Shown here: positions 7,861 to 37,671 of the stretch, piece by piece
Numbering within the stretch: the stretch's first letter is position 1
Layout of the letters: the number at the start of each line of letters is the position of its first letter
NCBI RefSeq assembly: GCF_014653785.1
Contig: NZ_BNAS01000001.1
Location: forward strand, 248,001-312,000
Direction of reading: 5' to 3'
Source of the DNA: Promicromonospora soli
GTDB lineage: Bacteria > Actinomycetota > Actinomycetes > Actinomycetales > Cellulomonadaceae
Length of the DNA: 64,000 bases
Notes under the pieces: model-generated
The model's database searches: none
What the model was told of the DNA's origin: nothing
Seen by the model: only the letters and a program-made list of their open reading frames with translations
Translations under genes and position numbers: made by a program

Positions 7861-8439
7861 ATGCCGAACCTCATGGTGGACTTCATCATCTCGCTCGACG
7901 GTTACGCGTCCGCGGAAGGCTGGCCCGGCTTCTGGGGCATGGAGGGGCCCGAGTACCTGGAGTGGGTCACCTCCGGACCCGAGTACGAGCACACCGCCCT
8001 CATGGGTGCGACGACGTACCGGCTGATGTCCGGGTTCGCCGCCAAGATGCCCGACGATCCTGGCATGGCCGCCATGAACGCACTGCCCAAGGTGGTGTTC
8101 TCCTCGACCCTGAAGGCACCACTCTCGTGGGCCAACACCGAGCTGGTCCGCGAGGACGCCGTCGAAGCCGTCCGGGACCTGAAGCAGAGCTCCTCGCGGC
8201 CCCTGCGCACGATCGGCAGCCTCAGCCTGTGCCGGTCACTGCTCGCAGCTGGCCTGGTGGACCGCTTCCGGGTGGGCGTGTTCCCGGTGATCACAGGCGC
8301 CACCGGGAAGGAGCGCATCTTCGACGGGTATCCCGACGTCGCCCTCGACCTGGTCGAGAGCCGCACGTTCGACGGTCGGATCCAGCTGCTCGAGTACGTG
8401 CCCCGGGTGCTGGAAGGACCGCCCGGCGCCAGTAGCTGA
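7861..8439 (+). CDS. DHFR-fold reductase family protein (RibD C-terminal type)
   Basis: 192-residue cytoplasmic protein with the dihydrofolate reductase fold found in the C-terminal domain of RibD. The N-terminal strand ends in SLDGYASAEG, GATTYRLM precedes the cofactor region, and TIGSLSLCRSLLAAGLVD matches the glycine-containing NADPH-binding loop (G-S/G-x-L) of the family. A ribosome-binding site AAGGGAGA precedes the ATG. Its reaction is unknown, and such proteins are often annotated only as deaminase/reductase-like. Two further members of the fold lie at 25248 and 27437, so this is one of three in the window. Confidence 0.8.
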   Translation: MPNLMVDFIISLDGYASAEGWPGFWGMEGPEYLEWVTSGPEYEHTALMGATTYRLMSGFAAKMPDDPGMAAMNALPKVVFSSTLKAPLSWANTELVREDAVEAVRDLKQSSSRPLRTIGSLSLCRSLLAAGLVDRFRVGVFPVITGATGKERIFDGYPDVALDLVESRTFDGRIQLLEYVPRVLEGPPGASS

Positions 8440-34060: not shown

Positions 34061-34519
34061 TCACGGCCGCGGCCAGCGCCGACCCGACCGTTCCTCGACC
34101 ACCCGGTTGTAGCGGCCGAGCAGCTCCGCGAGCTGGACCCGGTCCTCCTCCGGCCAGTCGGCGAGCAGGTCGGCGAGCAGCGCCTGGCTCGCCTCGCGCT
34201 CCTCGGTGAGCAGACGGCGTCCGACGTCGGACAGCCGGAGCTTGCGCGCCTGACCGCCGTCGGGGTCCTCGAAGCGCTCCGCGAGACCCTCCCGCCGCAG
34301 CGCCGCGGTCTGCCGGTTCAGCGTGGACACGTCCAGGCCGGTAGCGACGGCGAGCTCGGCCAGGCTGGCCGGTCCCCCGGCGTCGAGGAGGCTGAGCAGG
34401 GTGTACGCGCTCTGGTCGAGGCGCCCGCCCTTGCGCCGTGAGCGGCCGGCGGGCAACGTCGCCAGGTGCCGACCGAACAGCATGGCCTCGTACTCGATCC
34501 GGTTGATCGGGGACGACAT
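34061..34519 (-). CDS. MarR-family transcriptional regulator
   Basis: 152-residue winged-helix regulator. A helical dimer region (RIEYEAMLFGRHLATL) is followed by the recognition segment LAELAVATGLDVSTLNRQT and the wing RFEDPDGGQARKLRLSDVG, and ends with the second dimerisation helix. GGAGGTAG precedes the ATG. It heads a minus-strand group with an acetyltransferase and a luciferase-like oxidoreductase gene, which it may control together with itself. A short palindrome in the divergent promoter region (34557-34567) is a candidate operator. Confidence 0.9.
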   Translation of the reverse strand: MSSPINRIEYEAMLFGRHLATLPAGRSRRKGGRLDQSAYTLLSLLDAGGPASLAELAVATGLDVSTLNRQTAALRREGLAERFEDPDGGQARKLRLSDVGRRLLTEEREASQALLADLLADWPEEDRVQLAELLGRYNRVVEERSGRRWPRP

Positions 34520-34556
34520 CGTCTACCTCCGGTCCGGCGCCGCCGGTCGGCGTCTA

Positions 34557-34567
34557 TGCATCATGCA
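34557..34567. promoter_or_regulatory. Candidate MarR operator
   Basis: TGCAT-c-ATGCA, an 11-bp palindrome in an A/T-rich patch 38 nt upstream of the marR-type start and in the region shared with the divergent DUF2277 gene. One site only. Confidence 0.4.
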
Positions 34568-34649
34568 CAACGTACGCCATCCCGAGCGTCGCCACGGCCC
34601 CGTGAGGTTGGCCCTGCAGGAGGACCACCGAGCAGCGTACGGTCGGAGC

Positions 34650-34973
34650 ATGTGCCGGAACATCACCACGCTACGCGGGCTCGAACCGCCCGCCACCGAC
34701 GAGGAGATCATGGCCGCGGCCCTGCAGTTCGTGCGCAAGGTCACGGGTGTGACGAAGGTCAGCGACGCCACCCGCGAACCGGTGGAGCAGGCCACGCAGG
34801 AGATCGCGGACATCGTGACGCGCCTGCTCGACACGCTGCCTGAACGCCGTCAGCCACCGAAGAACGTGCCGCCGCTGCGCCGCGCGGAGGTCCAGGCGCG
34901 CATCGCGCAGCGCATCAAGGAGCGCGAGGAGCATGAGCGCATGCACGAGCTGGGGATCGCGCACTCGCACTGA
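34650..34973 (+). CDS. DUF2277 protein
   Basis: 107-residue protein of unknown function that begins MCRNITTLRGLEPPATDEEI and continues AAALQFVRKVTGVTKVS, the conserved pattern of DUF2277. The C-terminal half is highly charged and helical (RRAEVQARIAQRIKEREEHE), ending HELGIAHSH. The N-terminal Cys and the His cluster at the end might bind metal, but this is a guess. The start is fixed by TACGGT (34638-34643) 7 nt upstream. No clear operon partner: the Cys-codon leader of the next operon begins 27 nt later. Confidence 0.82.
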   Translation: MCRNITTLRGLEPPATDEEIMAAALQFVRKVTGVTKVSDATREPVEQATQEIADIVTRLLDTLPERRQPPKNVPPLRRAEVQARIAQRIKEREEHERMHELGIAHSH

Positions 34974-34987
34974 GCGGGCCGCGCCGT

Positions 34988-34993
34988 TACAGT
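34988..34993 (+). promoter_or_regulatory. Leaderless -10 box of the Cys-codon leader ORF
   Basis: TACAGT ends 7 nt before the GTG of the leader ORF at 35000, so the transcript should begin at that GTG. Confidence 0.65.
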
Positions 34994-34999
34994 TGCGGC

Positions 35000-35032
35000 G
35001 TGCTCGCCCGCCTCGCCTGTTGCTGTCGCTGA
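35000..35032 (+). CDS. Leaderless poly-Cys leader peptide (uORF)
   Basis: GTG CTC GCC CGC CTC GCC TGT TGC TGT CGC TGA encodes the 10-residue peptide MLARLACCCR. Three Cys codons in a row are highly unusual in so short a frame. The TACAGT box places the transcript 5' end at its GTG. Leaderless small ORFs with consecutive Cys codons are an established cysteine sensor in mycobacteria, and here the next gene is a cysteine-metabolism gene. Ribosomes stalling on the Cys codons when Cys-tRNA is scarce would change folding of the RNA downstream (see the attenuator). The peptide itself probably has no function. Confidence 0.8.
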   Translation: MLARLACCCR

Positions 35033-35082
35033 CCCCGGACCCGTCCGTAGTCCGCGCGCACTGCTGCGCGCACAGCAACAGG
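35016..35082 (+). promoter_or_regulatory. Cysteine-responsive translational attenuator
   Basis: The Cys-codon segment CCTGTTGCTGT (35016-35026) is a perfect 11-bp complement of ACAGCAACAGG (35072-35082), which runs into the AGGAAGAG ribosome-binding site of the beta-synthase gene. A second perfect 7-bp hairpin (GCGCGCA-ctgc-TGCGCGC, 35054-35071) fills the loop. When cysteine is plentiful the uORF is finished and the long stem can mask the ribosome-binding site. A ribosome stalled on the Cys codons covers the left arm and frees it. The pairing is seen in the sequence; the mechanism is inferred from the mycobacterial precedent. Confidence 0.75.
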
Positions 35083-35093
35083 AAGAGAAACAG

Positions 35094-36461
35094 GTGCAGT
35101 ACGTCAACTCTGTCGTAGACCTGGTCGGCAACACGCCCCTCGTCCGGCTCCACCGGGTGACCGAGGGCGTGACGCGTGCGACCGTGCTCGTCAAGCTCGA
35201 GTACCTCAACCCCGGCGGGTCCGCGAAGGACCGCATAGCGGCCCGCATCATCGAGGCGGCCGAGCGCGAGGGCAAGCTCCGGCCGGGCGGGACCATCGTG
35301 GAGCCCACGTCGGGCAACACCGGTGTCGGCCTCGCGCTCGTCGCCCAGCAGCGCGGCTACCGGTGCGTCTTCGTGCTGCCCGACAAGGTGGGCGAGGACA
35401 AGCGCAACGTGCTCACGGCGTACGGCGCAGAGATAGTGGTGACCCCGACGGCGGTGGCGCCGGACAGCCCCGAGTCGTACTACTCGGTGAGCGACCGGCT
35501 GGTGCGCGAGATCCCCGGCGCCTTCAAGCCGGACCAGTACTCGAACCCCAACGGTCCCCGCTCCCACTACGAGACCACCGGTCCCGAGATCTGGCGGGAC
35601 ACCGACGGCCGGGTGACGCACTTCGTCGCGGGCGTCGGCACTGGCGGCACGATCACGGGCGCGGGCCGCTATCTGCGCGAGGTCTCGGGCGACCGGGTGC
35701 GTATAGTCGGCGCCGACCCCGAGGGGTCGGTCTACTCCGGCGGCACCGGCCGCCCGTACCTGGTCGAAGGTGTCGGCGAGGACTTCTGGCCGTCCGCCTA
35801 CGACCCGAGCGTGCCGCACGAGGTCATCGCGGTGAGCGACGCCGAGTCGTTCGCGATGACCCGGCGCCTCGCCCGCGAGGAGGGCATCCTCGTGGGCGGG
35901 TCGAGCGGCATGGCAGTCGTCGCAGCCCTGCGTGCCGCGCGGGACGCGAGCCCGGACGACGTCGTCGTGGTCCTGCTGCCCGACGGCGGCCGCGGCTACC
36001 TCGGCAAGATCTTCAACGACACCTGGATGCGGTCCTACGGGTTCTCGCCCGCCGTCGAGAGCCACACGGTCGCCGACGTGCTGGCCGCCAGGGCGGACCG
36101 CACCCCGCCGCTGGTCTACGTGTACAAGACCGACACCGTGCGGGACGCGATCGACCGGATGACGCGCACCGGCGTCTCGCAGCTGCTCGTGCTCACCGCG
36201 GAACCGCCGGTGGTGCTCGGGGAGATCACCGGGGCTGTGCACGAGGAGGACCTGCTCGACGGGGTGTTCACGGGCAAGGTGAACCTCTCCGACGAGGTCG
36301 GCGGGCTCATCGGCCGGCCCCTGCCGCTCGTGGGCGTCAACGAGCCGGTCGGGACGCTCCGCGCCGCCCTCGCCGACGAGACCGCCCTGCTGGTGACCGA
36401 CGGCGGCAAGGCCCTCGGTGTGGTCTCCCGCTCCGACCTGCTCGACTACCTCGCGGTCTGA
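35094..36461 (+). CDS. cbs: Cystathionine beta-synthase
   Basis: PLP enzyme that condenses homocysteine and serine to cystathionine, the first step of reverse transsulfuration. The 455-residue protein has NTPLVRLHRV, the PLP-Lys motif NPGGSAKDRIA, PTSGNTGVGLAL and GVGTGGTITGAG. A C-terminal pair of CBS domains (about 330-455) marks beta-synthase and not a plain cysteine synthase. GTG start with AGGAAGAG upstream, which is the sequence masked by the leader stem. A gamma-synthase/lyase gene follows at 46 nt, so both would come under the cysteine attenuator. Confidence 0.92.
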   Translation: MQYVNSVVDLVGNTPLVRLHRVTEGVTRATVLVKLEYLNPGGSAKDRIAARIIEAAEREGKLRPGGTIVEPTSGNTGVGLALVAQQRGYRCVFVLPDKVGEDKRNVLTAYGAEIVVTPTAVAPDSPESYYSVSDRLVREIPGAFKPDQYSNPNGPRSHYETTGPEIWRDTDGRVTHFVAGVGTGGTITGAGRYLREVSGDRVRIVGADPEGSVYSGGTGRPYLVEGVGEDFWPSAYDPSVPHEVIAVSDAESFAMTRRLAREEGILVGGSSGMAVVAALRAARDASPDDVVVVLLPDGGRGYLGKIFNDTWMRSYGFSPAVESHTVADVLAARADRTPPLVYVYKTDTVRDAIDRMTRTGVSQLLVLTAEPPVVLGEITGAVHEEDLLDGVFTGKVNLSDEVGGLIGRPLPLVGVNEPVGTLRAALADETALLVTDGGKALGVVSRSDLLDYLAV

Positions 36462-36507
36462 CCGCACCACAACGCCGAAACGCCCAGAACGCCGAAGAGA
36501 GGCGACC

Positions 36508-37671
36508 ATGAACGACGCACGGACGAGCCGTTTCGACACGCTCGCGATCCACGCAGGACAGCACCCCGACCCCACGACCGGCGACGCGATCCCCGCCATC
36601 CACGTCACCTCCACCTACGTGCAGGACGGCATCGGCGGGCTGCGCGGCGGGTACGAGTACTCCCGCGGCGGCAACCCCTCGCGCACCGCCCTCGAGGAGC
36701 AGCTCGCGGCGATCGAGGGTGGCGCGCAGGGCATCTCGTTCGCGTCCGGCCTCGCCGCGGAGGACGCCCTCCTGCGGGCCGTGCTCTCGCCCGGCGACCA
36801 CGTGCTCGTGCCGAACGACGTCTACGGTGGCACGCACCGGCTCGTGCGCACGATCCACGGACGCGCGGGCGTGGAGCACACGACTGTGGACACGGCCGAC
36901 CTCGACGCCGTGCGCGCGGCTGTCCGGCCCGAGTCGAAGGTGCTGTGGGTCGAGACGCCGTCGAACCCGCTGATGAAGATCAGTGACATCGCCGCGCTGG
37001 CCGGCCTCGCCGACGACGCGGGCCTGCTGCTGGTCGTCGACAACACGTTCGCGTCGCCCGCCCTCCAGCGCCCCCTCGACCTCGGGGCCGGCGTCGTCGT
37101 GCACTCCACGACGAAGTACCTCGGCGGGCACTCGGACGTCGTCGGCGGCGCCGTCGTCGTGGGGAACGGCAACGACGAGCTCGCGGACCAGGTGCGGTTC
37201 GTGCAGTTCGCCGCGGGCGCCGTGTCCAGCCCGTTCGACGCGTTCCTTACCACGCGCGGCATCAAGACCCTCGCGGTTCGGATGCAGCGCCACTCCGAGA
37301 ACGCCCAGACGCTCGCCGAGCGCCTGGTCGGCCACCCGGCGGTGGCCCGTGTGCTGTACCCAGGCCTGCCCGATCACCCGGGCCACAAGACCGCCGCGCA
37401 CCAGATGTCGCGCTTCGGCGGCATGATCTCGCTCGACCTCGCGGGCGGCGAGCGCGCCGCGCGCACGTTCGCCGAGTCGATGCGGGTCTTCCTGCTCGCC
37501 GAGTCGCTCGGCGGCGTGGAGTCGCTGGTCAACTACCCGAGCGAGATGACGCACGCGTCGGTGCGTGGCACGGAGGCCGAGGTCTCGCCGTCGATCGTGC
37601 GGCTGTCGGTGGGGCTCGAGGACGTCACCGACCTGCTCGACGACGTGCTGCAAGCGCTGGACCGGATCTGA
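36508..37671 (+). CDS. Cystathionine gamma-lyase or gamma-synthase
   Basis: Cys/Met-metabolism PLP enzyme of 387 residues. It shows YVQDGIGGLRGGYEYSRGGNP, ASGLAAEDALL, VVDNTFASP and the PLP-Lys motif HSTTKYLGGHSD, and is complete. Gamma-synthases (methionine direction) and gamma-lyases (cysteine direction) cannot be separated by eye. The pairing with cystathionine beta-synthase under a Cys-codon leader favours the lyase, which would finish homocysteine-to-cysteine conversion, whereas many pipelines would name it metB. ATG after AGAGAGG. Confidence 0.88.
   Translation: MNDARTSRFDTLAIHAGQHPDPTTGDAIPAIHVTSTYVQDGIGGLRGGYEYSRGGNPSRTALEEQLAAIEGGAQGISFASGLAAEDALLRAVLSPGDHVLVPNDVYGGTHRLVRTIHGRAGVEHTTVDTADLDAVRAAVRPESKVLWVETPSNPLMKISDIAALAGLADDAGLLLVVDNTFASPALQRPLDLGAGVVVHSTTKYLGGHSDVVGGAVVVGNGNDELADQVRFVQFAAGAVSSPFDAFLTTRGIKTLAVRMQRHSENAQTLAERLVGHPAVARVLYPGLPDHPGHKTAAHQMSRFGGMISLDLAGGERAARTFAESMRVFLLAESLGGVESLVNYPSEMTHASVRGTEAEVSPSIVRLSVGLEDVTDLLDDVLQALDRI

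Follow-up and report, generated by a model that had tools for sequence, protein, structure and literature searches.

A predicted cysteine-responsive leader with a stem over the ribosome-binding site of cystathionine beta-synthase in Promicromonospora soli

In a stretch of 64,000 nucleotides from Promicromonospora soli (hereafter the window), the gene for cystathionine beta-synthase (cbs) is preceded by a leaderless-type short ORF with three consecutive Cys codons, and the RNA of these codons is complementary to the ribosome-binding site (RBS) of cbs. We consider that this element is very probably a cysteine-responsive translational attenuator of the cbs-metB pair; the words complete and cysteine-responsive, which the initial annotation of the locus had used, stand as predictions of the model. 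The reading is supported in silico by the anatomy of the leader, its conservation, the pairing of the two arms, and the relief of this pairing by a modelled ribosome footprint. The features of the locus are collected in Table 1.

Table 1. Features of the cbs leader and of the genes that follow it, in positions of the window
Feature	Position	Strand	Remarks
-10-like hexamer TACAGT	34988..34993	+	6 nt 5' of the leader start codon (leaderless geometry); without -35 match
Putative leaderless leader ORF MLARLACCCR	35000..35032	+	GTG...TGA, 10 codons + stop
Three Cys codons TGT TGC TGT (candidate sensor codons)	35018..35026	+	identical in 11/11 Promicromonospora
Masking stem, 5' arm CCTGTTGCTGT	35016..35026	+	over the Cys codons
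Inner hairpin 1, leader stop codon region	35031..35052	+	single-sequence fold only
Inner G+C-rich hairpin 2	35054..35071	+	7 bp, adjoins the masking stem; without T run after it
Masking stem, 3' arm ACAGCAACAGG	35072..35082	+	overlaps the Shine-Dalgarno
cbs Shine-Dalgarno region AGGAAGAG	35080..35087	+	read from the sequence
Cystathionine beta-synthase (cbs)	35094..36461	+	GTG start, 455 residues; TIGR01137 592.4 bits, cut-off 510.25; PALP + CBS domains
Cys/Met-metabolism PLP enzyme, cystathionine gamma-synthase/lyase type	36508..37671	+	second gene of the pair; NF005871, PF01053

The TACAGT hexamer, the GTG and the 10-codon ORF with Cys-Cys-Cys that the initial annotation had described are all in place in the Promicromonospora genome. 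The leader codons are GTG CTC GCC CGC CTC GCC TGT TGC TGT CGC TGA, with the GTG at 35000-35002 and the TGA at 35030-35032. Between the leader stop and the cbs start lie 61 nt, which contain two predicted hairpins and have ACAGCAACAGGAAGAGAAACAG as their 3' end. Since only 6 nt separate TACAGT from the GTG, there is no room for a Shine-Dalgarno sequence of the leader if transcription begins there. No two-hexamer sigma-70 promoter and no -35 match were found in 34900-35200, and the placing of the transcript start is therefore derived from the spacing of the -10 hexamer and its conservation. Among 90 distinct leaders, which had been selected by a TANNNT at 5-7 nt, this spacing amounts to 6 nt in 62, 7 nt in 28, and 5 nt in none. 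From the sequence we infer a transcript 5' end at position 35000 and a leaderless start. A gap of 14 nt separates TACAGT from the stop codon of the upstream gene (34323-34973), which carries DUF2277 (PF10041). Read-through from this gene could therefore give a longer, leadered transcript, and it would bury the leader start in a longer RNA without Shine-Dalgarno.

The gene directly downstream of the leader belongs to cysteine metabolism, as cbs scores above the TIGR01137 cut-off. For the second gene, the NCBIfam assignment is cystathionine gamma-synthase (NF005871, 607 bits, cut-off 513), and its ATG at 36508 is our choice inside the ORF 36418-37671. The two had been annotated as a reverse-transsulfuration pair: this holds for the identity of cbs (TIGR01137), and with the second gene called a cystathionine gamma-synthase the pair is not proven, although cbs makes a role of the pair in reverse transsulfuration likely. 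The two genes are adjacent in 11 of the 13 genomes of the genus, which are the same 11 that have a close cbs; close homologues of both are absent from the same two genomes (G002 and G004). Two cbs loci under the titles Vibrio cholerae 35D (L095) and Sporosarcina beigongshangi (L096) are 68% identical to this actinobacterial protein, and these titles or assemblies look mislabelled.

In the loci scanned, such leaders are concentrated upstream of cbs. The one described here is the sole ORF on either strand of the 64 kb window that has a TANNNT 5-8 nt before its start, at most 20 codons and two adjacent Cys within the final six residues. Both strands of 110 cbs loci, at least two of them second copies of others, were put through a strict scan (TANNNT 5-7 nt before the start, at most 20 codons, Cys-Cys in the last six residues, 300-nt upstream regions), which gave 30 leaders in 32,796 bases upstream of cbs versus 0 in 914,354 bases elsewhere. 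With a looser definition (two Cys anywhere, fewer than 40 codons), 33 of the 110 loci carry one. In Promicromonospora, all 11 distinct cbs loci have TACAGT and, 6-7 nt further on, a GTG that opens a 9-10-codon ORF containing TGT TGC TGT, located 94-103 nt before cbs. A random loss of the Cys codons or of the arm among relatives, on which the initial annotation had staked its model, is thus not seen in the genus, where TACAGT, GTG and Cys-Cys-Cys are kept in every one of these loci and the arm CCTGTTGCTGTC is invariant. Judged from the sequences, the leader and its pairing are not a matter of chance.

Beyond the genus, 55 of 59 Agromyces cbs loci have an ORF of leaderless type that is no longer than 16 codons and contains two or more Cys; the assignment to Agromyces follows from several leaders that are identical to those of named Agromyces records. 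Leaders were also found in 15 of the 48 loci read from other Microbacteriaceae, in 1 of 18 from other members of the family or order, and in 18 of 78 named-genome loci outside Promicromonospora, these three sets overlapping in part. No leader turned up among the cbs loci that were read from Arthrobacter (7), Blastococcus (3), Curtobacterium (7) and Microbacterium (5). The conservation centres on the Cys codons near the stop, and the other leader residues vary. The loci come from a family draw of 83 genomes with cbs, of which 50 were read (2 of genus g45 and 48 others; the remaining 33 are nearly all lower-scoring), from a search with 37 cbs-type matches (full length or long partial), of which 30 loci were read, and from a set of related loci that was limited to the 80 best among 590 or more confirmed stretches. 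In total, 102 of 216 loci have a leader, and merging of identical leader sequences left 90 distinct ones. The four Agromyces loci without a leader of at least two Cys are L156 and L166, where the leader is gone, and L170 and L207, with one Cys codon each (by eye, MSAPMLCRRR in L170 and MSSSLLC followed by TGA in L207). In L156, L166 and a further Agromyces locus, L035, the cbs RBS follows almost immediately on a -10 box, TAGGCT; no leader ORF is left, and the 3' arm GAACACGGC remains. From their sequences, these three loci are apparent natural deletions of the leader.

The perfect pairing over 11 bp between the Cys-codon stretch and the cbs RBS, which had been noted from the sequence at the outset, is present in the window: CCTGTTGCTGT and ACAGCAACAGG form 11 Watson-Crick pairs. 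When the RBS zone is shuffled with its dinucleotides kept, an 11-bp match arises about once in 300 shuffles, and 1% of them equal the duplex energy. The RNA of 35000-35110 folds with -51.5 kcal/mol (z -4.25), a value that 1 of 200 shuffles reaches, and the folds of the 11 Promicromonospora leaders have z values from -2.5 to -5.8. Alignment of these 11 leaders shows no variation in the Cys arm CCTGTTGCTGTC or in the block AACAGGAAG; the segment between the arms diverges in sequence and length. The named 12-pair helix is formed in 92.9% of cells in Promicromonospora, versus 30-56% for slid registers. The uninterrupted 11-bp pairing, as originally described, is a property of the window that recurs in part: the number of uninterrupted pairs is 11 in the window and in L003, 8 in L010, and 7 in the other eight, which have a CTG/CAG extension past a bulge or mismatch, so that the full length is reached in only 2 of 11 species and at least 8 pairs in 3 of 11. 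Taken as a simple duplex of Cys arm and RBS, the pairing beats dinucleotide shuffles at 0.03 or below in 4 of the 11 (L001, L003, L007 and L010) and at 0.09-0.34 in the other seven; over 31 loci the mean z of this simple duplex is only -0.66.

We modelled a ribosome footprint on the leader and computed the cost of opening the cbs region from -16 to +3. In all 11 Promicromonospora leaders, a footprint on the Cys codons lowers this cost, which is 15.7-30.8 kcal/mol without it and 3.4-7.8 kcal/mol with it, an in silico relief of 7.8-26.0 kcal/mol. An equally large footprint positioned behind the stop codon gives a change of -1.7 to 3.4 kcal/mol. For the window, opening costs 22.2 kcal/mol in the free RNA, or 17.4 if 60 nt of cbs are added; of the 22.2 kcal/mol, 3.3-8.1 remain when the A site is set on a Cys codon (nine placements). 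Opening of the Shine-Dalgarno alone (GGAAGAG) costs 10.6 kcal/mol in the free RNA and 0.3-2.6 with the A site on a Cys codon. When the A site is set on the Arg or the stop codon (six placements), 7.0-10.3 of 22.2 kcal/mol remain for the whole region and 2.1-3.9 of 10.6 for the Shine-Dalgarno. A ribosome at these codons would thus also relieve much of the masking, so that discrimination must come from dwell time. In these computations, an RBS-sequestering structure exists and a ribosome on the Cys codons blocks it.

Synonymous leaders were drawn under three schemes, 60 each: with the codon usage of the window, flat, and flat with the Cys codons fixed. None of the 180 synonymous window leaders masks as well as the native one, and for each of the remaining Promicromonospora species no scheme yields more than 3 of 60 that equal the respective native leader. 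With all three Cys codons set to TGC, the RBS of the window is still largely masked (16.0 versus 22.2 kcal/mol). Among 13 masking leaders of Agromyces and Leifsonia, the native leader is matched by 0-3 of 60 (codon usage), 0-6 (flat) and 0-21 (Cys codons fixed); in six non-masking leaders, 10-45 of 60 synonymous leaders match. These 13 and 6 leaders were chosen after the masking results were known, and the Promicromonospora set (11/11) was taken whole. The masking of the RBS, proposed on the first inspection of the locus, and its relief by a ribosome are reproduced in silico and exceed the synonymous controls.

The co-variation of the two arms differs between the genera. Covarying arms had been put forward as a check of the stem in related genomes; they are seen in one Agromyces group and not in Promicromonospora. 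In the latter, no pair has a two-sided change and shuffling of the partners among species has no effect; the lack of compensatory change follows from a leader arm that never varies, and the Promicromonospora stem is thus a case of conservation, not of covariation. The Agromyces leaders of the ...CCRR and ...CCCR type reach the RBS via a different sequence than Promicromonospora: the leader segment CATGCCGTGTT pairs with AACACGGCATG in L034, CATGTTGTGTT with AACACAGCATG in L036, TGCTGTGTTG with CAACACAGCA in L220, and CCGGTGTT with AACACCGG in L172. The arms change together, with a leader CGG-TGT facing ACACCGG and a CCG/CTG/TTG-TGT facing ACACGG or ACACAG. In the selected Agromyces group, which was delimited once the masking leaders were known and consists of the peptides ending in CCRR together with three named peptides of the CCCR type, cognate arms reach -14.09 versus -12.74 kcal/mol for exchanged arms (23 distinct pairs; p 0.0031 in a permutation that ignores phylogeny). 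The same permutation, again ignoring phylogeny, gives p 0.028 for all 49 Agromyces pairs and p 0.00005 for all 82 distinct pairs; a cognate advantage is absent from the other 26 Agromyces pairs (p 0.92) and from Promicromonospora (8 pairs, p 0.50). In a MAFFT alignment of the 23 Agromyces sequences, a column-wise count finds standard pairs in 8-22 of 23 sequences per position and in 6 at one position. This count is blurred because the register of the RBS shifts relative to the start codon, and we therefore relied on the permutation test of the best duplexes.

Beyond Promicromonospora, the codon-to-RBS stem is found less widely than the poly-Cys leader itself. Over the 90 distinct leaders, the relief by the footprint is at least 5 kcal/mol in 35, 3-5 in 12 and below 3 in 43; the first class holds 11 of 11 Promicromonospora leaders, 21 of 52 from Agromyces and 3 of 27 others. 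With 43 of 90 leaders relieved by less than 3 kcal/mol, masking is not a necessary companion of the leader. A codon-to-RBS stem as a universal rule was rejected on this ground and because the cognate advantage does not extend beyond the selected Agromyces group. Among the 43 non-masking leaders, the main pairing partner of the Cys codons is the 30-nt segment behind the stop codon in 19 cases and the RBS zone in 10.

The Cys codons of the leaders are mainly TGT (199 TGT versus 32 TGC in the 90 distinct leaders), and the genes of the window, 34 by heuristic prediction, use 8 TGT versus 63 TGC, i.e. TGT in 8 of 71. The share of TGT is alike in masking (72 of 86) and non-masking leaders (101 of 118), so that the stem by itself does not account for the bias. 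The view that TGT was selected solely for pairing was rejected, given this same bias and the all-TGC window leader that still masks. One joint reading, which we offer tentatively and hold to be possible rather than probable, is that the poly-Cys leader before cbs may be an old, widely kept sensor of the Micrococcales whose attached switch was rebuilt more than once, with the UGU preference reflecting slow decoding and not pairing. As parts of that same tentative reading, the sensor codons would have become a stem arm in Promicromonospora and in Agromyces/Leifsonia, in differing registers and with co-changing arms in Agromyces, and the UGU-rich leaders without a stem in other lineages would have to be read by another route.

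For the locus in the window, we infer a start of transcription, translation of the leader, stalling, a response to cysteine and a physiological output that would be linked as follows. Transcription would begin at the G of the GTG at 35000, as the -10 spacing suggests, and ribosomes would start directly on that 5' end. With plentiful cysteine, they would pass Cys-Cys-Cys and leave at the TGA; the freed CCTGTTGCTGT would then pair with ACAGCAACAGG and, according to the computed stem and fold, hide the cbs Shine-Dalgarno and, to a lesser extent, the GTG start. When cysteinyl-tRNA is scarce, the footprint model predicts that a ribosome waiting on the Cys codons covers the 5' arm, so that the stem does not form and the cbs RBS is open. 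As their enzyme families suggest, cystathionine beta-synthase and its partner would then turn the sulfur of homocysteine into cysteine. In the mycobacterial system, stalled ribosomes are reported to prevent the formation of structures that would hide the RBS of the downstream gene.

Alternatively, the ribosome on the leader could determine whether transcription reads through into cbs or ends at a terminator, either intrinsic or Rho-dependent. Such transcription attenuation is a common route among amino-acid leaders, and Rho has been suggested for Cys leaders of Mycobacterium and P. acnes and for the B. longum cbs leader in the excerpted text of Seliverstov 2005 (PMC1262725). We consider it unlikely here: a search of 34900-35200 for trp-type intrinsic terminators (G+C hairpin + T run) yielded no terminator-like site, and the Cys codons pair precisely with the Shine-Dalgarno region, an arrangement that a terminator would not need. 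Termination was rejected as a candidate on the lack of such sites at the locus together with the T runs of the 43 non-masking leaders, the longest of which between leader stop and cbs start is 4. The distance of 61 nt between leader stop and cbs start is also compatible with coupling or reinitiation, where leader translation would feed cbs and the stem would set basal expression only, with no sensing of cysteine. A ribosome at the leader stop codon relieves the masking too, and there is little masking in 43 of the 90 distinct leaders; however, it is the Cys codons near the stop that are conserved (30 of 110 loci in the strict scan) and not merely a short ORF, and we judge coupling without sensing to be very unlikely.

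The strong fold of the leader (z -4.25) might also be that of a riboswitch-like element binding a ligand or a protein directly, with Cys-Cys-Cys present by happenstance. This is extremely improbable in our view, as the interior between the arms, unlike a ligand pocket, is unconserved in sequence and length, and no Rfam family lies above chance in 34500-36000, the two Rfam matches there being far below their gathering scores and outside the leader. Equally little weight is given to a chance complementarity of the G+C-rich upstream region. For the eight relatives with 7 bp, 7-bp matches do occur here in 4-21% of shuffles, and the duplex energies are mostly unremarkable; the empty 914 kb of background in the strict scan, the synonymous controls and the slid registers speak against chance.

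A translational attenuator at cbs would have a known working principle. By analogy, this principle is already that of mycobacterial cysteine attenuation, and what is new is another lineage and a stem that can be read directly. According to passages in three papers (PMC9094748, PMC9031893 and PMC13236596) that cite Canestrari et al. 2020 (Mol Microbiol 114:93-108), polycysteine leaderless short ORFs regulate downstream genes in M. smegmatis by cysteine-dependent attenuation, in agreement with the view of the initial annotation that leaderless poly-Cys leaders are known from mycobacteria. As far as those passages describe it, the leader studied here shares with the mycobacterial ORFs the short frame, here putatively leaderless, the contiguous Cys codons and the position before a cysteine-metabolism gene. 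In the system they portray, translation of the downstream gene is regulated by the cysteine supply, a response that is predicted here. By the same accounts, our leaders differ in lineage (Promicromonospora, Agromyces and other Microbacteriaceae), in their target, cbs-metB, and in a length of about 10 codons. The 5' arm of the stem over the Cys codons, read from the sequence, and the co-changing arms of one Agromyces group are found here.

In its excerpted text, Seliverstov 2005 (PMC1262725) predicts a Cys leader before cbs in Bifidobacterium (B. longum). Like ours, the candidates it describes in that text are short ORFs of Actinobacteria with a run of Cys codons near the stop, before cys operons or cbs; in the same excerpts no other attenuator element is given for them, their mode of regulation is called unknown and Rho is suggested, whereas a codon-to-RBS stem is present here. 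The LEU element of actinobacterial leuA, as portrayed in these parts of that source, senses leucine through a proposed pseudoknot, and classical attenuation by leader translation is deemed unlikely for it; in place of its run of Leu codons before leuA, our locus has Cys codons before cbs. A small leaderless ORF that ends in Cys codons and is occupied by ribosomes precedes mycobacterial cysA2, according to the passages on it in Shell et al. 2015 (PMC4633059). As described there, it resembles our leader in its terminal Cys cluster before a cysteine-related gene; the gene is another one, and those passages mention no RBS-masking stem. No report of such a leader in Promicromonospora, Agromyces or other Microbacteriaceae was found among titles and abstract openings of the open-licence PMC literature. 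If the attenuator is real, cysteine attenuation would extend from mycobacteria to environmental Micrococcales and would be tied to the conversion of homocysteine to cysteine, and the stem would provide the downstream half of a Cys leader in front of cbs, which the 2005 survey had not detected in the species it covered. Within about 100 nt, sensor and switch would share the same nucleotides, and Agromyces offers natural variants (two leader-less and two single-Cys genomes).

The P. soli genome contains another ORF of leaderless type that is rich in Cys. It lies on the minus strand of L113 (G000:C3:183000-194000), where, from position 7879, TAACGT is followed by 7 nt and an ATG that opens MTKAARILLVTTRHEMRMCAMPTCACDGCRSCQI. 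Its peptide belongs to no family in the NCBIfam scan, and no such leader was found around the second PF01507 match (C7) or the PALP gene (C4) of the same genome. This ORF has 34 codons with five Cys, four of them TGT, and precedes the gene of a nitrite/sulfite reductase, after which comes that of a PAPS reductase (PF01077, PF01507). From its stop, the reductase is reached after 84 nt at the first in-frame GTG, or after about 160 nt at a later ATG. It is possibly a second cysteine leader, in which case, besides the one of cbs, the genome may hold a small set of them.
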